Positions 5,594 through 11,583 of a stretch of DNA of 64,000 nucleotides are shown piece by piece (position 1 is the first letter of the stretch; each line of letters opens with the position of its first letter). The DNA is from Pseudotamlana agarivorans. Lineage in GTDB: Bacteria > Bacteroidota > Bacteroidia > Flavobacteriales > Flavobacteriaceae. A program made the position numbers and the translations under genes. The notes under the pieces are model-generated. The model was not told the origin of the DNA, ran no database searches, and worked only from the letters and a program-made list of their open reading frames with translations. The stretch is taken from NCBI RefSeq assembly GCF_018860245.1, contig NZ_JAHKPD010000008.1:253821-317820 (forward strand), in the 5' to 3' direction.

Positions 5594-5695
5594 CGATATC
5601 TGTTAAAAGTGAGGGCAAGATACTTATTTTCATTAAAAAAATGAGCTTGTAAATGTGTTCTTCAAACTTAAACTAAAATAAGGCCTTAACATTAG

Positions 5696-5764
5696 GGTAA
5701 CATTTTAATCATAAACGATTAATCATTTGGTAACATGGAACTTCAAGTTGTGTCGTTACTTTGC
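5696..5764 (+). promoter_or_regulatory. Putative operator and promoter, small receptor-domain gene
   Basis: GGTAACA occurs at 5696 and again at 5729, exactly 33 bp (three 11-bp steps) apart, with TTAATCAT copies between. The second GGTAAC lies 30 bp before CTTTGC (5759-5764), part of a near-consensus -7 box (TTACTTTG). The same TTAATCAT, TGGTAACA and CTTTGC arrangement with the same 30-bp spacing occurs before the next gene. Confidence 0.55.
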
Positions 5765-5786
5765 AAAATATTATCAGACAGAAATA

Positions 5787-6173
5787 ATGAAACAATATAT
5801 TTATATTTTTATGTTTTTTTTCACTGCTTTTGGGATTGCTCAAAACGCAGGTTCTATAAGTGGTAACTTATTAGATTTAGAAGCCGAGAACGCTCCCTTG
5901 TTATATGCTAAGGTTCTAGTAAAGGAAACAGGAACTGAGGTGTTATCGGATGAGCAAGGTTTTTTTAAATTCGATAACCTAAAGGAAGGAACGTACACAT
6001 TGGTTTATAGTTTTATTGGTTATGAAACGAAAACATCTGAAGTGCAAGTAGAAGCTTCAAAAAATGAAGTTTTAGAATTGTATTTAGGTGCGAGCACGAT
6101 TTCATTAGATGATTTAGCTTCGGTATATGCAAGTGCTGATAATAATGAAACAGCAGTGGTTAGCAACAAGTAA
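5787..6173 (+). CDS. Stand-alone carboxypeptidase-regulatory-like secreted protein
   Basis: A 128-residue protein consisting of a signal peptide (MKQYIYIFMFFFTAFGIAQ) and one carboxypeptidase-regulatory-like beta-sandwich. It closely resembles the N-terminus of the receptor encoded next: both have GTYTL-YSF-GYET, SD--G---FDN and a final S(L)DD/EL stretch after the same spacing. Here the frame stops where the receptor would enter its plug domain. I start at the ATG at 5787, which follows the promoter and begins the signal peptide; an upstream in-frame start at 5727 precedes the likely transcription start. It has its own terminator. Role unknown: it could be a truncated paralogue or a periplasmic partner of the receptor. 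Confidence 0.7.
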   Translation: MKQYIYIFMFFFTAFGIAQNAGSISGNLLDLEAENAPLLYAKVLVKETGTEVLSDEQGFFKFDNLKEGTYTLVYSFIGYETKTSEVQVEASKNEVLELYLGASTISLDDLASVYASADNNETAVVSNK

Positions 6174-6228
6174 ATTAGATTGAGGGAAAAATCTAACTTA
6201 GTATAAACTTCTTTAGATGACATATATT

Positions 6229-6267
6229 AAAAGCTGCTTTCGGTTTAACGAAAGCAGCTTTTTTTTT
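6229..6267 (+). terminator. Intrinsic terminator
   Basis: Perfect 13-bp stem AAAGCTGCTTTCG / CGAAAGCAGCTTT with a 6-nt loop, followed by a T run. It ends the small secreted-protein transcript before the receptor gene. Confidence 0.9.
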
Positions 6268-6371
6268 GTGATTATTTTTTTCAAATTATTTTCAATGTTA
6301 AATTAATGTAACCAATAATGCTTGGTTTTTCATTTTGAGATAACGGTATCATAACACTTTTGTTACCGTTC

Positions 6372-6418
6372 TTTAATCATGTGGTAACACTAGAATTAAA
6401 GTCCTATGGTTTCTTTGC
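6372..6418 (+). promoter_or_regulatory. Putative operator and promoter of TonB-dependent receptor
   Basis: TTTAATCAT and GGTAACA (GGTAAC at 6383), then CTTTGC at 6413, exactly 30 bp later as in the preceding gene. An inverted GTTACC lies at 6362-6367. This suggests co-regulation of the two genes. Confidence 0.5.
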
Positions 6419-6429
6419 AGCGTGAAATT

Positions 6430-9204
6430 ATGACAAAAACAATGAAAAAATTAATAGTATTATTTACAATCATGACATCGGCATTTGCATTTGCGCAAAA
6501 CACCGGTTCGGTTAAAGGCAAATTAACCGATAAAGAATACAACAACGAACCGCTTGCATTCGCTAACGTATTAATTAAGGGCACTACAATAGGAACGACT
6601 TCAGATTTTGATGGACTTTATTACTTCGATAACATGGAGCCAGGAACCTATACTTTACTGTATAGTTTTGTTGGATACGAAACGCAACAAATTGAAGTAA
6701 CTATTACAAGTGGTAAAACTGAAGAAATTAATGTGGCAATGAATGCTAGCGCCGCATCTTTAGATGAGGTTGTTATTACAACCACTACAAAACGAGAAAG
6801 TGAATCGGCTTTATTGCTGGAGCAGAAGAAAGCGGTTGTTATTAAAGAAAGTATTGGAGCAGAACGACTATCTAAAATTGGGGTGTCTGATGCTGCTGCG
6901 GCAACAACTAAAATCTCTGGAGTTACACAAAGTGAAGGTTCTGGTGAGATTTACATTAGAGGTTTAGGAGATCGTTATTTATCAACCACTATGAATGGCC
7001 TGCCAATTCCATCTGATGATGTTAATAATAAAAATATCAACTTAGATTTGTTTTCTACAAATGTTATCGAAAATGTAGGGATTAGTAAAACTTACGATAC
7101 TTCAAGTTATGCCGATCAAACTTCTGGAAATATTGATGTAAATTCGAAGGAATATTCTAAAAAAACAATATCTGCACGTTTTCGTTCTAGTTATAATACG
7201 AATGTATTAGGATTAGATGGTAACTTTAAAAGAAGTGTAGCTTCAGACGATGTTAAATTTGGTTTCCATACTAAACAGTATGCTACAGTTGATTTAATTA
7301 CAAAGCAAGGTTGGGATCCTCTAGTTCAAGATAACACTAATAATTATAGTTTTAGATTGGGTGGCGGTACTAAAGTTAATGTCTTCGGAAAAGCATTATC
7401 ATTCTTTGCTGGTGGTTCTCACTCAAAAGCTTACGAATATCAAAGTGGAATTTTTAAAACATATAGATCTAATGTACTAGATAATAGTTTTAATGATGTT
7501 GAAAACTTTACGACTAGAACAAATTCAACAGGATATTTAAATATTGGATTGAAACTTAACAACGATCACCGTATAAAAGTAACCAGTTTAGCGGTTAATA
7601 AAAGTTCAGATAATGTTTACGAACAAGGTAGAAACGGAGAAGGCTATGTGTTCGATCAAGATCCTAAGGAAAAGCAGGCTTTTGTAAGAGATCAAAACTT
7701 TAAACAAACCATTTTACTTGTAAATCAACTTCACGGTACTCATAAAATTAGTGAAACTAATAAATTAGAATGGGCAGGAGGTTATAACTATGTACTTGCA
7801 GAAGAGCCAAACAGAGTTAGAAATGAAGCTAATATTTATAGTCCTGAAACCGATAATGTGAGTACAGATTATGTGCAATATGCACACGTTGGTGATTTTC
7901 AACAGCGAAAATCAAGTCAGAAAATTGAAGATACTGAGTATAATGCGTATTTAAAGGATCAAATCGCTTTTGGTAAATTAGATGAAGATGACAGCCGTGG
8001 GTATAAATTAAATTTAGGCGCCAATTTTAGAAGAAAGGAACGTGTTTTTAGTTCAAAGTTTGTAGGTGTAAGAGCGCGTGGTTTTCAGGTGCCAACAATA
8101 GATGATTTTTCTCAAACGTTTACTGATGCGAATTTTCAAAACGGACTTGTGCTAAGGGATAGTGATCCGGATAGATATGATGCAGATTTAACGGTGTTAG
8201 CTGGATATGCTAATGTGGATTTTGGATTGAATAAAAAGTTTTCTGGAAACCTTGGTGTACGTTATGAAAGAGATGAAATTAATGTGCTATGGGATGTAGC
8301 AAACTATGTGGGTCGTGTTGGTTCTGTAAAAAAGGATTACAACAGCATTTACCCAAGTGCAAACTTAAAATATGAGTTAAGCGATAAAAACTTTTTACGT
8401 TTTGCGAGTAGTTTAACGCAAACATTACCAGAGTTTAAAGAATTGTCTCCTTTCGAGTATGTGTCGCCTACAGGTCGTGTAACACGTGGTGATCCTAATT
8501 TAGAAAAATCTGAAGTTTTTAATGCAGATTTAAAATGGGAGTTCTTTCCAAAATCTGGAGAGGTGCTTTCTGCAACAGCATTCTATAAGAATATTAAAAA
8601 CCCAATCAATTTAGCATTAACTCGTGGTTCGGCAGGGATCTTCCAATTTTCGAACACAGGAGAAAAAGCTGATGTTTTAGGTTTTGAAATTGAAACGCGT
8701 TTAAATTTAATTGAAAATGACGAAGATGAAGCGATTCTAAATTTCAATACGAACATTACTAAAATGTGGTTCAATCAAGATTTATTTGAAAACTATCAAT
8801 ATAAAGATGTTACTGAAACTGGTTTACAAGGTGCTTCAGATTTAATCTTAAATGGTTCTTTAAGTTTCAATAGTTTAACTGAAAGAGAATTTATCGCTAC
8901 CGTTACGGGAAATTATTCTTCAGATAAAATATTTGCCTTAGGAGCGCCTGAAGATTTTAATAATAGTGATGTACTATATAATGATGAAATTATTGAAAAA
9001 GGCTTTTTTACTTTAGATTTAGTAATGACCAAAGAACTTACCGAAAACTTACAATTAAAGTTTGTTGGTAGAAACTTATTAAATCCTAAAATAGAGCAAA
9101 CTCAAAAAGTGAGAAACTTAGCTACTGGCATTGAAACAAACGAAGTAGTAAGCTCGTATAGAAATGGTAGTTTATTAAGTTTAAGTTTAGCACTTACTTT
9201 CTAA
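6430..9204 (+). CDS. TonB-dependent outer-membrane receptor
   Basis: About 924 residues from the ATG at 6430 (MTKTMKKL; MKKL at 6442 is also possible). Order of parts: signal peptide ending AFAFAQ; carboxypeptidase-regulatory-like domain (~25-110); plug domain with SEGSGEIYIRGLGDRYL and TTMNGLPIPS; then a 22-strand-type barrel ending in aromatic SLSLALTF. Such receptors import a bound ligand using TonB-ExbBD energy; an ExbBD operon lies at 22.8-25.1 kb. There is no SusD-like gene, so this is not a standard polysaccharide locus. The adjacent beta-helix lipoprotein may act as a surface ligand-binding partner (inference). Ligand unknown. Confidence 0.9.
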   Translation: MTKTMKKLIVLFTIMTSAFAFAQNTGSVKGKLTDKEYNNEPLAFANVLIKGTTIGTTSDFDGLYYFDNMEPGTYTLLYSFVGYETQQIEVTITSGKTEEINVAMNASAASLDEVVITTTTKRESESALLLEQKKAVVIKESIGAERLSKIGVSDAAAATTKISGVTQSEGSGEIYIRGLGDRYLSTTMNGLPIPSDDVNNKNINLDLFSTNVIENVGISKTYDTSSYADQTSGNIDVNSKEYSKKTISARFRSSYNTNVLGLDGNFKRSVASDDVKFGFHTKQYATVDLITKQGWDPLVQDNTNNYSFRLGGGTKVNVFGKALSFFAGGSHSKAYEYQSGIFKTYRSNVLDNSFNDVENFTTRTNSTGYLNIGLKLNNDHRIKVTSLAVNKSSDNVYEQGRNGEGYVFDQDPKEKQAFVRDQNFKQTILLVNQLHGTHKISETNKLEWAGGYNYVLAEEPNRVRNEANIYSPETDNVSTDYVQYAHVGDFQQRKSSQKIEDTEYNAYLKDQIAFGKLDEDDSRGYKLNLGANFRRKERVFSSKFVGVRARGFQVPTIDDFSQTFTDANFQNGLVLRDSDPDRYDADLTVLAGYANVDFGLNKKFSGNLGVRYERDEINVLWDVANYVGRVGSVKKDYNSIYPSANLKYELSDKNFLRFASSLTQTLPEFKELSPFEYVSPTGRVTRGDPNLEKSEVFNADLKWEFFPKSGEVLSATAFYKNIKNPINLALTRGSAGIFQFSNTGEKADVLGFEIETRLNLIENDEDEAILNFNTNITKMWFNQDLFENYQYKDVTETGLQGASDLILNGSLSFNSLTEREFIATVTGNYSSDKIFALGAPEDFNNSDVLYNDEIIEKGFFTLDLVMTKELTENLQLKFVGRNLLNPKIEQTQKVRNLATGIETNEVVSSYRNGSLLSLSLALTF

Positions 9205-9232
9205 GGTATTCAAAAACATAAATGATGTACTA

Positions 9233-9262
9233 AACCCTAAGATTTTTTCTTAGGGTTTTTTT
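9233..9262 (+). terminator. Intrinsic terminator
   Basis: Stem ACCCTAAGA / TCTTAGGGT with a T loop and a 3' T run, just after the receptor gene. Confidence 0.88.
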
Positions 9263-9348
9263 ATTGATTGGGCATTAGTTAATTAGATTCTAGTGACTTG
9301 TGGTTTGTAATATACAAGTTAACCTTTAGATAACAAAAGCGGTGTTTT

Positions 9349-9417
9349 TTACCGGTATTGGTAACTTATGTTTAATATTCTATTAAAGCTAGAACAACAG
9401 AAAACGTAGTTCTTTGC
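9349..9417 (+). promoter_or_regulatory. Putative operator and promoter of duplicated lipoprotein
   Basis: TTACC (9349-9353) and GGTAAC (9360-9365) form an inverted pair. A CTTTGC -7-like element follows at 9412-9417, 52 bp after GGTAAC, which is 22 bp (two helical turns) more than before the preceding two genes. Confidence 0.4.
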
Positions 9418-9462
9418 AGAGGAAATCAAACAAAAAATTTCAATAAATAATAAGAATTAAAA

Positions 9463-11496
9463 ATGAAAAAATTAACTGTAAAATTATTTAGTTTAGTAGC
9501 CTTAGTAGCTGCTGTTAACTTAACAAGTTGTAGTTCTGACGATCCAGAACCAATTGTAAAAGGAGACGAGAATGTGATTGTAAACTTAGAAAGTGGTATA
9601 CTTAATGGAACGCTTAAAGAAACTTATTCTTTAGACCCTTCAGTTGTTTATAGCTTAACTGGTCAGTTTATTATTGATAAAGATGCAGTTTTAAATATTC
9701 CTGCTGGAACTAAAATTCTTGCTGATAACGGTGGGTCAGATGTCTATATCGCCGTTTTAAAAGATGGAGAAATATACATTAATGGTAATGTTAATAATCC
9801 TGTTGTAATGTCTTCAATTAGTGGTGATCCTGGAGATTGGGGTGGTTTAACTATTTGTGGTAACGCGCTTACATCTGCGGGTGTTGATGCTGAAGCTGAA
9901 GTTGGTGGTTTTAAATATGGTGGAACTAACGATTCTGATAGTTCTGGTGCGATTAACTACTTACAAATTGTTGGTACTGGAGCTCAAATTAACTCTGAAT
10001 CTCAATATAACGGGGTGTCTTTCTACGGTGTAGGTTCTGGAACTATCGTTGAAAACCTTGCTGTAATTAATGGTGCAGATGATGGTGTTGAGTTTTTTGG
10101 AGGATCTGTTTCTGTAACTAATCTTTATTTAGAAGACAATGACGATGATTCTATCGACTGGACTGAAGAGTGGAGTGGTAATGTAACAAACGCATACATT
10201 TTACATACTAAAGTAGGTTTCTCTACGGCTTTTGAAGGGGATAAAAATAACGGTAAACCTACATTTACTAATATTACTGCAATTTCTACAGTAGGAGGTA
10301 AAGCTTTACAATTTAAAAAAGAATCAGGTGGTACTATTACAGGATTATCTTTAAGTGGTTACGATATAGATTTAGATATGGCCGATGGGGTTGACCCAAG
10401 TAAAAACATCATTTTCGCTGACGGATTAACGCCTGTTGAAATTTCAAATTCAGCTAATGATGACACTTATTACTATGCACTTGATGCTTCTGTTGTTCCA
10501 ACTGTTGATGTTAATTCTTTTAACTGGGTAGATTCAGATGTGTCTTTTGAAACCAGCGTTTTGCAAGGCGCTGTAACAGGAGATGTTACTTTAGATGCTT
10601 CTGTAAAGTATGTGCTTAATTCATCTTACATCGTACAAGATGGTGGTAAATTAACAATCCCTGCTGGAACAAAAATTACTGCTCGTGATGGTGGTACTGG
10701 AGTTTACATCGCTGTATTAATGGGTGGTGAAATCGATATACAAGGTACTGCACTTAACCCTGTTGTGATTGCTTCTTCCGCTGGCCAAGGTGGTGACTGG
10801 GGTGGTTTAACAATTTGTGGTAAATCTATAACTTCTGCAGGTGTTAACGCTGAAGCTGAAGTTGGTGGTTTCGAATACGGAGGAACTATTAGTGATGATA
10901 ATTCAGGATCTATTAAATATTTAGTTTTAAAAGGTACAGGAGCTCAAATTAACTCGGAGTCTCAATACAATGGTTTATCTCTTTATGCTGTTGGTTCTGG
11001 AACAACAATTGAAAACATTTCTGTAATCAATGGATCTGATGATGGTGTTGAGTTTTTCGGTGGAACAGTTTCTGCTTCAAACTTATACTTAGAAAATAAT
11101 GATGATGATTCTATCGATTGGACTGAAGGATGGAGTGGCTCGGTTACTAACGCTTACATCAAGCATACAGTTGCTGGTTTCTCTACAGTTTTTGAAGGTG
11201 ATAAAGATAATGGAAACCCAACATTTACTAACATTACTGCAATTTCTACCGTTGGAGGTAAAGCTTTACAGTTTAAAAAATTATCTGGTGGTACTATAAC
11301 TGGTCTTCATTTATCTGGGTATGCTTCAGATTTAGATATGGCTGATAATGGTGCTTTATCTAACGTGCAAATTAATGGAGCAGATGCAGATGCTACATTG
11401 ATAGCTGGTTCATCAACGGAGTACACGCTTAATTCTGGTAAAGATGCGGTAGCTTTAGATATCTCTGCTTGGACTTGGATTAACGCTAGTTTATAA
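9463..11496 (+). CDS. Lipoprotein with two 320-residue beta-helix-like repeats
   Basis: A 677-residue predicted lipoprotein; the signal ends NLTSC with the acylated Cys at residue 23. The rest is two copies of a ~260-residue module offset by exactly 320 residues. Each copy contains IPAGTKI, YIAVL, GDWGGLTICG, EAEVGGF-YGGT, GTGAQINSESQYNG, DDGVEFFGG, EGDK and NITAISTVGGKALQFKK. The short glycine- and Asn/Asp-rich turns suggest a right-handed beta-helix, as in surface adhesins or ligand-binding lipoproteins. The DNA copies are also alike, with mostly silent differences. It follows the TonB receptor and has a related promoter box, so a receptor-partner role is plausible. Not a SusD homologue. 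Exact function unknown. Confidence 0.75.
   Translation: MKKLTVKLFSLVALVAAVNLTSCSSDDPEPIVKGDENVIVNLESGILNGTLKETYSLDPSVVYSLTGQFIIDKDAVLNIPAGTKILADNGGSDVYIAVLKDGEIYINGNVNNPVVMSSISGDPGDWGGLTICGNALTSAGVDAEAEVGGFKYGGTNDSDSSGAINYLQIVGTGAQINSESQYNGVSFYGVGSGTIVENLAVINGADDGVEFFGGSVSVTNLYLEDNDDDSIDWTEEWSGNVTNAYILHTKVGFSTAFEGDKNNGKPTFTNITAISTVGGKALQFKKESGGTITGLSLSGYDIDLDMADGVDPSKNIIFADGLTPVEISNSANDDTYYYALDASVVPTVDVNSFNWVDSDVSFETSVLQGAVTGDVTLDASVKYVLNSSYIVQDGGKLTIPAGTKITARDGGTGVYIAVLMGGEIDIQGTALNPVVIASSAGQGGDWGGLTICGKSITSAGVNAEAEVGGFEYGGTISDDNSGSIKYLVLKGTGAQINSESQYNGLSLYAVGSGTTIENISVINGSDDGVEFFGGTVSASNLYLENNDDDSIDWTEGWSGSVTNAYIKHTVAGFSTVFEGDKDNGNPTFTNITAISTVGGKALQFKKLSGGTITGLHLSGYASDLDMADNGALSNVQINGADADATLIAGSSTEYTLNSGKDAVALDISAWTWINASL
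9601..11340 (+). repeat. 960-bp-period internal gene duplication
   Basis: Copy 1 is about 9601-10380 and copy 2 about 10561-11340. Landmarks repeat at exactly 960-bp offset: GGTGGTTTAAC at 9841 and 10801, ACATTTACTAA at 10261 and 11221. The frame is preserved. Confidence 0.9.
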
Positions 11497-11540: not shown

Positions 11541-11583
11541 AAGAAACCCTGTAAATTAATATTTGCGGGGTTTCTTGTTTTCT
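11541..11583 (+). terminator. Intrinsic terminator
   Basis: AAGAAACCC pairs with GGGTTTCTT across an AT-rich loop, followed by a T-rich stretch. It ends the lipoprotein transcript. Confidence 0.75.

Follow-up and report, generated by a model that had tools for sequence, protein, structure and literature searches.

A predicted PhoB-type Pho box upstream of a TonB-dependent receptor and beta-helix lipoprotein pair in Pseudotamlana agarivorans and other Flavobacteriia

A common repeat array precedes three consecutive genes

We analyzed a stretch of 64,000 nucleotides of Pseudotamlana agarivorans (contig NZ_JAHKPD010000008.1, positions 253,821 to 317,820; here, the window), which is part of contig C22 in a 3.73-Mb genome of 25 contigs. 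Between an HD-domain gene and atpD, the window carries three consecutive genes, encoding a small stand-alone domain, a TonB-dependent receptor, and a lipoprotein, and their promoters (P1, P2, and P3) contain tandem arrays of 11-base-pair (bp) units. We consider it very probable that this array is a PhoB-type Pho box of the Flavobacteriia and that the receptor and the lipoprotein, the latter a predicted beta-helix protein, form a pair belonging to the phosphate (PHO) regulon. Since the same promoter signal also precedes the known phosphate genes of relatives, the three genes are most likely induced jointly once phosphate is exhausted. The features of the locus are as follows.

5687..5741, + strand: P1 Pho-box array, five 11-bp units at 5687, 5698, 5709, 5720, and 5731
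5756..5764, + strand: -7 promoter element of gene 1, TTACTTTGC
5787..6173, + strand: gene 1, 128 amino acids, stand-alone CarboxypepD_reg-like domain (PF13715), signal-peptide-like start (judged by eye)
6229..6262, + strand: terminator-like hairpin 3' of gene 1
6341..6395, + strand: P2 Pho-box array, five 11-bp units at 6341, 6352, 6363, 6374, and 6385
6414..6418, + strand: TTTGC of the -7 element of gene 2 (receptor)
6430..9204, + strand: gene 2, TonB-dependent receptor, 924 amino acids, CarboxypepD_reg, plug, and barrel domains (start at 6442 possible in place of 6430)
9232..9258, + strand: terminator-like hairpin 3' of gene 2
9362..9405, + strand: P3 weak Pho-box array, TAAC at 9362, TAAT at 9373, TAAA at 9384, and CAAC at 9395
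9413..9417, + strand: TTTGC of the -7 element of gene 3
9463..11496, + strand: gene 3, lipoprotein, 677 amino acids, lipobox-type Cys23
11541..11576, + strand: terminator-like hairpin 3' of gene 3

The units of P1 are, in order, TAACATTAGGG, TAACATTTTAA, TCATAAACGAT, TAATCATTTGG, and TAACATGGAAC, and those of P2 are TAACGGTATCA, TAACACTTTTG, TTACCGTTCTT, TAATCATGTGG, and TAACACTAGAA; in both promoters, the final TAAC-like unit begins 29 bp upstream of TTTGC. An original prediction, made from the sequence of this region, had proposed a regulon of three separately terminated genes sharing a GGTAAC box, with the sequence TTAATCAT and an equal distance from GGTAAC to CTTTGC common to the first two. 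The shared sequence was found at 5719 and 6373, each gene is followed by its own terminator-like hairpin, and the spacing from GGTAAC (5696, 5729, 6383, and 9360, plus intragenic copies at 5862 and 7219) to CTTTGC (5759, 6413, and 9412, plus 7404) was indeed 30, 30, and 52 bp for genes 1, 2, and 3. The repetition of GGTAACA at 33 bp in the first promoter (5696 to 5729) also held, GGTAACA being one unit within the larger tandem array of 11-bp period. The third promoter had been described as lying two helical turns further; the distance of 52 bp is correct, but it is not a simple 22-bp shift, since the GGTAAC is unit -51 of the register common to P1, P2, and P3. In P3, the proximal units are degenerate, with CAAC at -18. 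Within CTTTGC lies TTTG, which belongs to the -7 element of the Bacteroidota, given as TAnnTTTG in Flavobacterium psychrophilum (PMC9723704); none of the three promoters has a perfect TA half.

We evaluated the arrays with a half-site matrix trained only on the receptor and gene-1 promoters of relatives, taking as the score five half-sites plus TTTG and as the null two sets of 200 simulated (Markov) windows. The sites at 5760 and 6414 scored 26.6 and 26.2 (25.5 and 25.3 once the six promoters of the same genus were left out of training), while the next score in the window was -11.3 and the best in the simulations were 8.8 in the first 200 windows and 6.1 in the second. When three units were ranked on both strands, the top three sites of the window were the promoters of the three genes; the scores of P3 (10.1) and P1 (6.9) by three units alone were matched in 6 and 16 of 200 simulated windows and are weaker evidence than the five-unit scores.

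Conservation of the array and of its phosphate-related neighbors

Homologues of the lipoprotein were present in 74 of the 99 genomes searched, counting the P. agarivorans genome itself and distant paralogues, and the regions around the 35 best matches from other genomes were fetched. A homologous receptor lay directly 5' of the lipoprotein in the window and in all 35 regions, and 25 of the 35 receptor promoters scored at least 20 of 25 for the full array, which is conserved across genera. Both motif and gene order, whose absence in relatives had been set beforehand as the refuting outcome, are thus conserved. An open reading frame resembling gene 1 was found in nine of the 35 regions, with all nine promoters scoring at least 20. 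In one locus (L103:9981-10391), the gene-1-like domain stands 3' of the lipoprotein instead of 5' of the receptor, and the array is present there too.

These regions also contained PhoB (8 of 35), OprP (12), or PitA (16), with at least one of the three in 24. Among 20 named loci, PhoB adjoined the receptor in 15, including Flavobacterium suaedae, F. oncorhynchi, and F. tructae, OprP and PitA followed in two, and neither arrangement was seen in three, one of which is a fragment of 4.4 kb (L176 and L097 are one record). The PhoB homologues sit divergently beside the receptor in 8 of the 35 and 15 of the 20 regions, and those in the eight regions are homologues of the P. agarivorans PhoB (58 to 84% identity). 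The latter, the best PhoB match in the genome (219 bits), is encoded on contig C21 and followed by a PhoR/PnpS-like kinase, so that the receptor-lipoprotein pair does not adjoin phoBR in this genome.

The box precedes other phosphate genes in a fixed register

A model (R1) of 33 promoters, none from the P. agarivorans genome and six from its genus, was run against the whole genome. Set A1 was drawn from 44 receptor and gene-1 promoters, of which 34 scored at least 20 and 33 were used, with L097 left out. At an expectation value (E) below 0.01, R1 retrieved only P1 (1.7e-14), P2 (2.2e-14), P3 (3.1e-4), and a site 22 bp upstream of a gene for a PlcP-like metallophosphoesterase (PF12850/PF00149), and in nine of ten named genomes its best site fell within the fetched receptor locus (the exception was L176, Aureivirga). 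Because R1 picks out receptor promoters and not Pho boxes in general, we made R2 as a broader model; set A3 held 56 promoters above the score threshold, with the P. agarivorans genome left out. The six top R2 sites in the genome were those of OprP (1.9e-11), P2 (1.4e-6), the PlcP-like gene, PitA (0.0036), a second array upstream of OprP (0.0097), and P3 (0.012). The matches at OprP and PlcP-like are not independent, because R2 training included the corresponding promoters of relatives; the half-site matrix test is independent. A search for a dimer plus TTTGC with one mismatch gave a weak excess in the genome (100 versus 75), the pitA box being among the exact matches. That box lies at the end of oprP (L170:8211-8266; C21:284710-284765, - strand), and, as pitA has a box of its own, oprP and pitA may be driven separately. 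Weak model matches (E of 0.02 to 0.1) at C21:52791-52840 (-), C5:58089-58171 (+), and C21:510658-510712 (-), with no phosphate gene clearly downstream, are possibly chance matches.

For the half-site test, 218 control promoters were taken from the fetched regions, excluding the labeled families, genes with such a gene as upstream neighbor, and L176; PhoX loci L230, L231, L234, L237, L250, and L251 and PlcP loci L268 and L269 were dropped because they lacked a usable gene start, as was one receptor promoter on account of its length. By four units, 24 of 28 PlcP-like and 28 of 30 OprP promoters exceeded the 99th percentile of the controls, as did 7 of 16 for PitA (14 of 16 by two units), 28 of 34 for the receptor, and all nine for gene 1 (mostly training rows). 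The lipoprotein gene exceeded it in 9 of 36 and so lacks a strong box of its own in most relatives. The two best five-unit scores among the controls both belonged to PstS genes above the NCBIfam cut-off, adding PstS to the phosphate-starvation genes preceded by the box. High two-unit controls included PF04101 glycosyltransferases of F. tructae and F. suaedae, PF04101 being the Pfam family of the low-phosphate-induced Fjoh_0541. The single regulon proposed for the receptor and the lipoprotein is supported, but it is wider than the three genes and the third box is weak.

The register of the array provides the firmer point. We counted sites that exceeded the 95th percentile of the controls and had a TTTG in range, and applied no score filter to the controls. 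Measured from the best dimer, the next TTTG lay at a distance of 7 modulo 11 in 25 of 26 OprP, 13 of 15 PlcP-like, and 12 of 14 PitA sites (50 of 55 altogether), and these rows lie outside the training set and so are not circular. The same phase was found in 27 of 30 receptor promoters and 5 of 9 gene-1 promoters (the other four were one base off), rows that are partly circular because the training promoters had been chosen in that register; it was also found in 3 of 8 lipoprotein, 2 of 3 PhoX, and 12 of 96 control sites. Units at -18, -29, -40, -51, -62, and -73 therefore lie on one face of the DNA relative to the -7 element, the placement anticipated for an activator in contact with RNA polymerase, and we infer that the array activates rather than represses transcription. 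The direct-repeat site of an OmpR/PhoB-type regulator that had been guessed at is supported by the 11-bp array, its register, and its conservation.

Comparison with known phosphate systems

The Pho-box consensuses of Escherichia coli PhoB and Bacillus PhoP are direct repeats with an 11-bp period at the -35 position. The array found here resembles them in period and place, and its TTAACA-like unit recalls the Bacillus box, but it differs in having five to six TAACATTnnnn units reaching to 18 bp before the Bacteroidota TTTG. In Riemerella anatipestifer, the PhoP regulator binds sites with the core TTTAACA, which fits the unit found here, and PhoPR is reported to be upregulated in phosphate starvation (PMC9603813). 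The DNA affinity purification sequencing motif of that study differs in that no array or promoter register is described in the accessible part of the paper and its targets are redox and virulence genes; orthology to the PhoB considered here is putative. In Bacteroides fragilis, the pst promoter is a binding site of PhoB, and pst is lost, together with a phosphate/sulphate permease, when phoB is mutated; the accessible part of that paper shows no box sequence (PMC3547664). Pho boxes are marked before plcP in marine bacteria in a figure legend, with no sequence in the accessible part of that paper (PMC4796936). We found no description of the box architecture in the literature searched, where phosphate genes are listed by expression; the PHO-regulon system itself is known in kind.

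The closest known arrangement is the PUSIV/phoBR cluster of Flavobacterium johnsoniae (Fjoh_0543-0546; PMC8115612), in which a receptor is likewise followed by a beta-helix-type lipoprotein (FII). According to Table 1 of that study, the receptor Fjoh_0545 and the lipoprotein Fjoh_0546 had fold changes of 8.02 and 9.91 (log2 by its text) in phosphate depletion. The PhoR-PhoB-receptor-lipoprotein order of this cluster is also found in the Flavobacterium loci L178, L188, L192, and L193. As F. johnsoniae itself is outside the fetched loci, orthology to the Fjoh pair rests on these congeners. The P. agarivorans locus differs in lying away from phoBR, between the HD-domain gene and atpD, and in having a two-domain lipoprotein, one terminator per gene, and the extra gene 1 before the receptor. 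PlcP is phosphate induced in F. johnsoniae (PMC8115612) and plcP is phosphate regulated in the flavobacterium Dokdonia (PMC4796936); in both cases, orthology to the PlcP-like protein here is putative.

The lipoprotein and its receptor

The structure model of gene 3 (mean predicted local distance difference test score of 87.8; first 39 residues below 50) contains two tandem all-beta domains, at about 46-350 and 366-677, predicted to be beta-helices. Its neighbors in the Protein Data Bank (PDB) by fold were right-handed beta-helix proteins, with GH55 glucanases the best (E, 3.1e-5), at TM-scores so low that they indicate the fold class only. No Pfam or NCBIfam family matched gene 3 at an E of 0.001, and a PDB sequence search of the lipoprotein gave no match, while that of the receptor gave three chains over its N-terminal part. 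Cys23 is invariant in 30 aligned homologues. A SusCD glycan importer was considered and rejected: SusCD/PusCD importers likewise pair a TonB-dependent receptor with a lipoprotein, but gene 3 matched no SusD family in these searches, as had been noted originally, and its model is a beta-helix instead. Adjacency, lipobox, and lack of SusD suggest that the lipoprotein is the surface partner of the receptor for a phosphorus ligand. Lipoproteins FI, FII, and FIII of F. johnsoniae are 31 to 36% identical to a low-phosphate-inducible Caulobacter lipoprotein (PMC8115612), and Caulobacter ElpS is also a phosphate-starvation surface lipoprotein (PMC2996285).

The beta-helix domain is doubled in 13 of the 43 lipoproteins compared (among them gene 3, L076, L079, L080, L081, L083, and L191). 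In 6 of the 11 doubled lipoproteins that could be split for the domain tree (L078 and L084 could not), the halves are each other's closest kin (support of 0.86 to 1.0), a pattern that would reflect repeated independent duplication or homogenization.

A candidate small RNA upstream of oprP

Upstream of oprP, the second Pho-box-like array and its TTTG are followed by a conserved noncoding stretch that ends with a terminator hairpin (C21, about 286,130 to 286,035, - strand; locus L283, with relatives L284-L312). One arm of this stretch, TATTAGTTTTTGTCG, is complementary to CGACAAAAACTAATA, just after the -7 element of oprP, and the 12-mer of the arm occurs in the genome only in the two arms and in one intragenic copy. 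Both arms could be anchored in 27 of 30 loci, with each position from -4 to +9 paired in 25 to 27 of them. Because the anchors themselves dictate most of the nine core pairs, the flanking positions carry the weight; at -4, compensatory changes were seen (20 A-T, 3 T-A, and 2 C-G). The terminator stem covaries as well. Set A4 comprised 25 of the 27 small-RNA segments, with L292 and L295 left out. Scanning 7 of the 30 oprP loci against Rfam yielded no hit that attained the gathering score, and 85 new RNAs are listed for F. psychrophilum (PMC9723704). The stretch is thus a candidate small RNA, predicted to be driven by a Pho box and complementary to the 5' end of oprP mRNA.

Weighing the phosphate reading

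Several observations weigh against a PhoB-type Pho box. The P. agarivorans PhoB fails to reach the curated cut-off of either PhoB model (219.5 versus 296.2 and 207.5 versus 270 bits). Ten receptor promoters scored below 20 (L074, cut by a contig end that leaves the proximal part visible, L076, L083, L086, L091, L094, L099, L100, L107, and L108), and P1 scored poorly with R2 (E, 0.15 to 0.16). None of the eight phoB promoters exceeded the 99th percentile, and most PhoX-family promoters lack it (present in 2 of 24 by four units and in 6 of 24 by five), in contrast with the strong phosphate induction of a PhoX-like gene in F. johnsoniae (PMC8115612). By two units, the top control was the gene of a TauE-type permease (L100) that diverges from pstS; nonphosphate genes were among the other high controls. 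To these points are added the partial circularity of the receptor and gene-1 register and the common ancestry of the relatives, by which p-values are overstated. As for PhoX itself, only three of the matches in the relatives' PhoX loci (L223-L252) exceeded 300 bits to the Pfam model, and PhoX was detected in two of the ten named genomes. In Riemerella, deletion of phoPR raised pstS 8-fold, leaving its authors unsure of a role in phosphate (PMC5399024), a point against transferring the reading directly from that organism.

This last result would also suit a different regulator of the OmpR/PhoB family reading the box in response to envelope stress or another nutrient, its proximity to phosphate genes being an overlap. 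The genome has a second family member at C20:507448 (147 bits), and the Riemerella motif was likened to that of ArcA by its authors (PMC9603813). We regard this explanation as improbable, given that another protein of this genome matches PhoB best, that PhoB homologues stand divergently beside the receptor in relatives, and that the targets of the box include PstS, PitA, OprP, and PlcP-like genes. The 11-bp direct-repeat layout, being common to members of the OmpR/PhoB family, fits either regulator. TonB-dependent receptors are classic metal importers, and the repeats might serve an iron response for a metal or siderophore receptor; this is very unlikely in view of the phosphate genes that neighbor the receptor in relatives and of F. 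johnsoniae, where iron and nitrogen limitation were controls and the low-phosphate receptors were, in the data considered, induced by phosphate depletion only (PMC8115612). Of the two ligands originally proposed, phosphate or metal, phosphate is accordingly favored, by the PhoB/PhoR, OprP, and PitA neighbors and by the box before PlcP-like, OprP, PitA, and PstS genes. Least credible of all is that AT-rich sequence and close kinship gave rise to the repeats, with no regulatory role. A loose 16-mer with up to three mismatches had 241 matches in the genome, barely more than the 217 of its reversed control, a search uninformative beyond the two exact sites; the simulated windows lacked comparable arrays, the array is kept across genera, and the register shared by PlcP-like, OprP, and PitA promoters outside the training set contradicts such an origin.

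Under the PhoB-type Pho box, then, the PhoR/PhoB pair, encoded elsewhere on the chromosome, would act when phosphate is short. PhoB dimers would occupy the 11-bp repeats side by side along one DNA face, as far as the border of the -7 element, the place expected for a -33 element. RNA polymerase with sigma-A would thereby be brought to genes 1, 2, and 3 and to those of the PlcP-like enzyme, OprP, and PitA. Gene 2 would function as an energy-driven outer membrane receptor with gene 3 as its surface partner, both probably capturing and importing a phosphorus-containing ligand, and gene 1 would be an accessory copy of the N-terminal domain of the receptor.

More tentatively, and with considerable doubt, the phosphate response of the Flavobacteriia may run on a long Pho-box array of its own, in a regulon with two parts not known elsewhere, namely, a TonB-dependent importer in which a beta-helix lipoprotein replaces SusD and a Pho-boxed small RNA pairing with the 5' end of oprP mRNA. 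The small RNA, if real, adds a posttranscriptional layer to phosphate uptake in Bacteroidota. A sequence definition of the Pho box for this large bacterial group would make its phosphate regulon readable from the genome and would let uncharacterized receptors be assigned to phosphorus.

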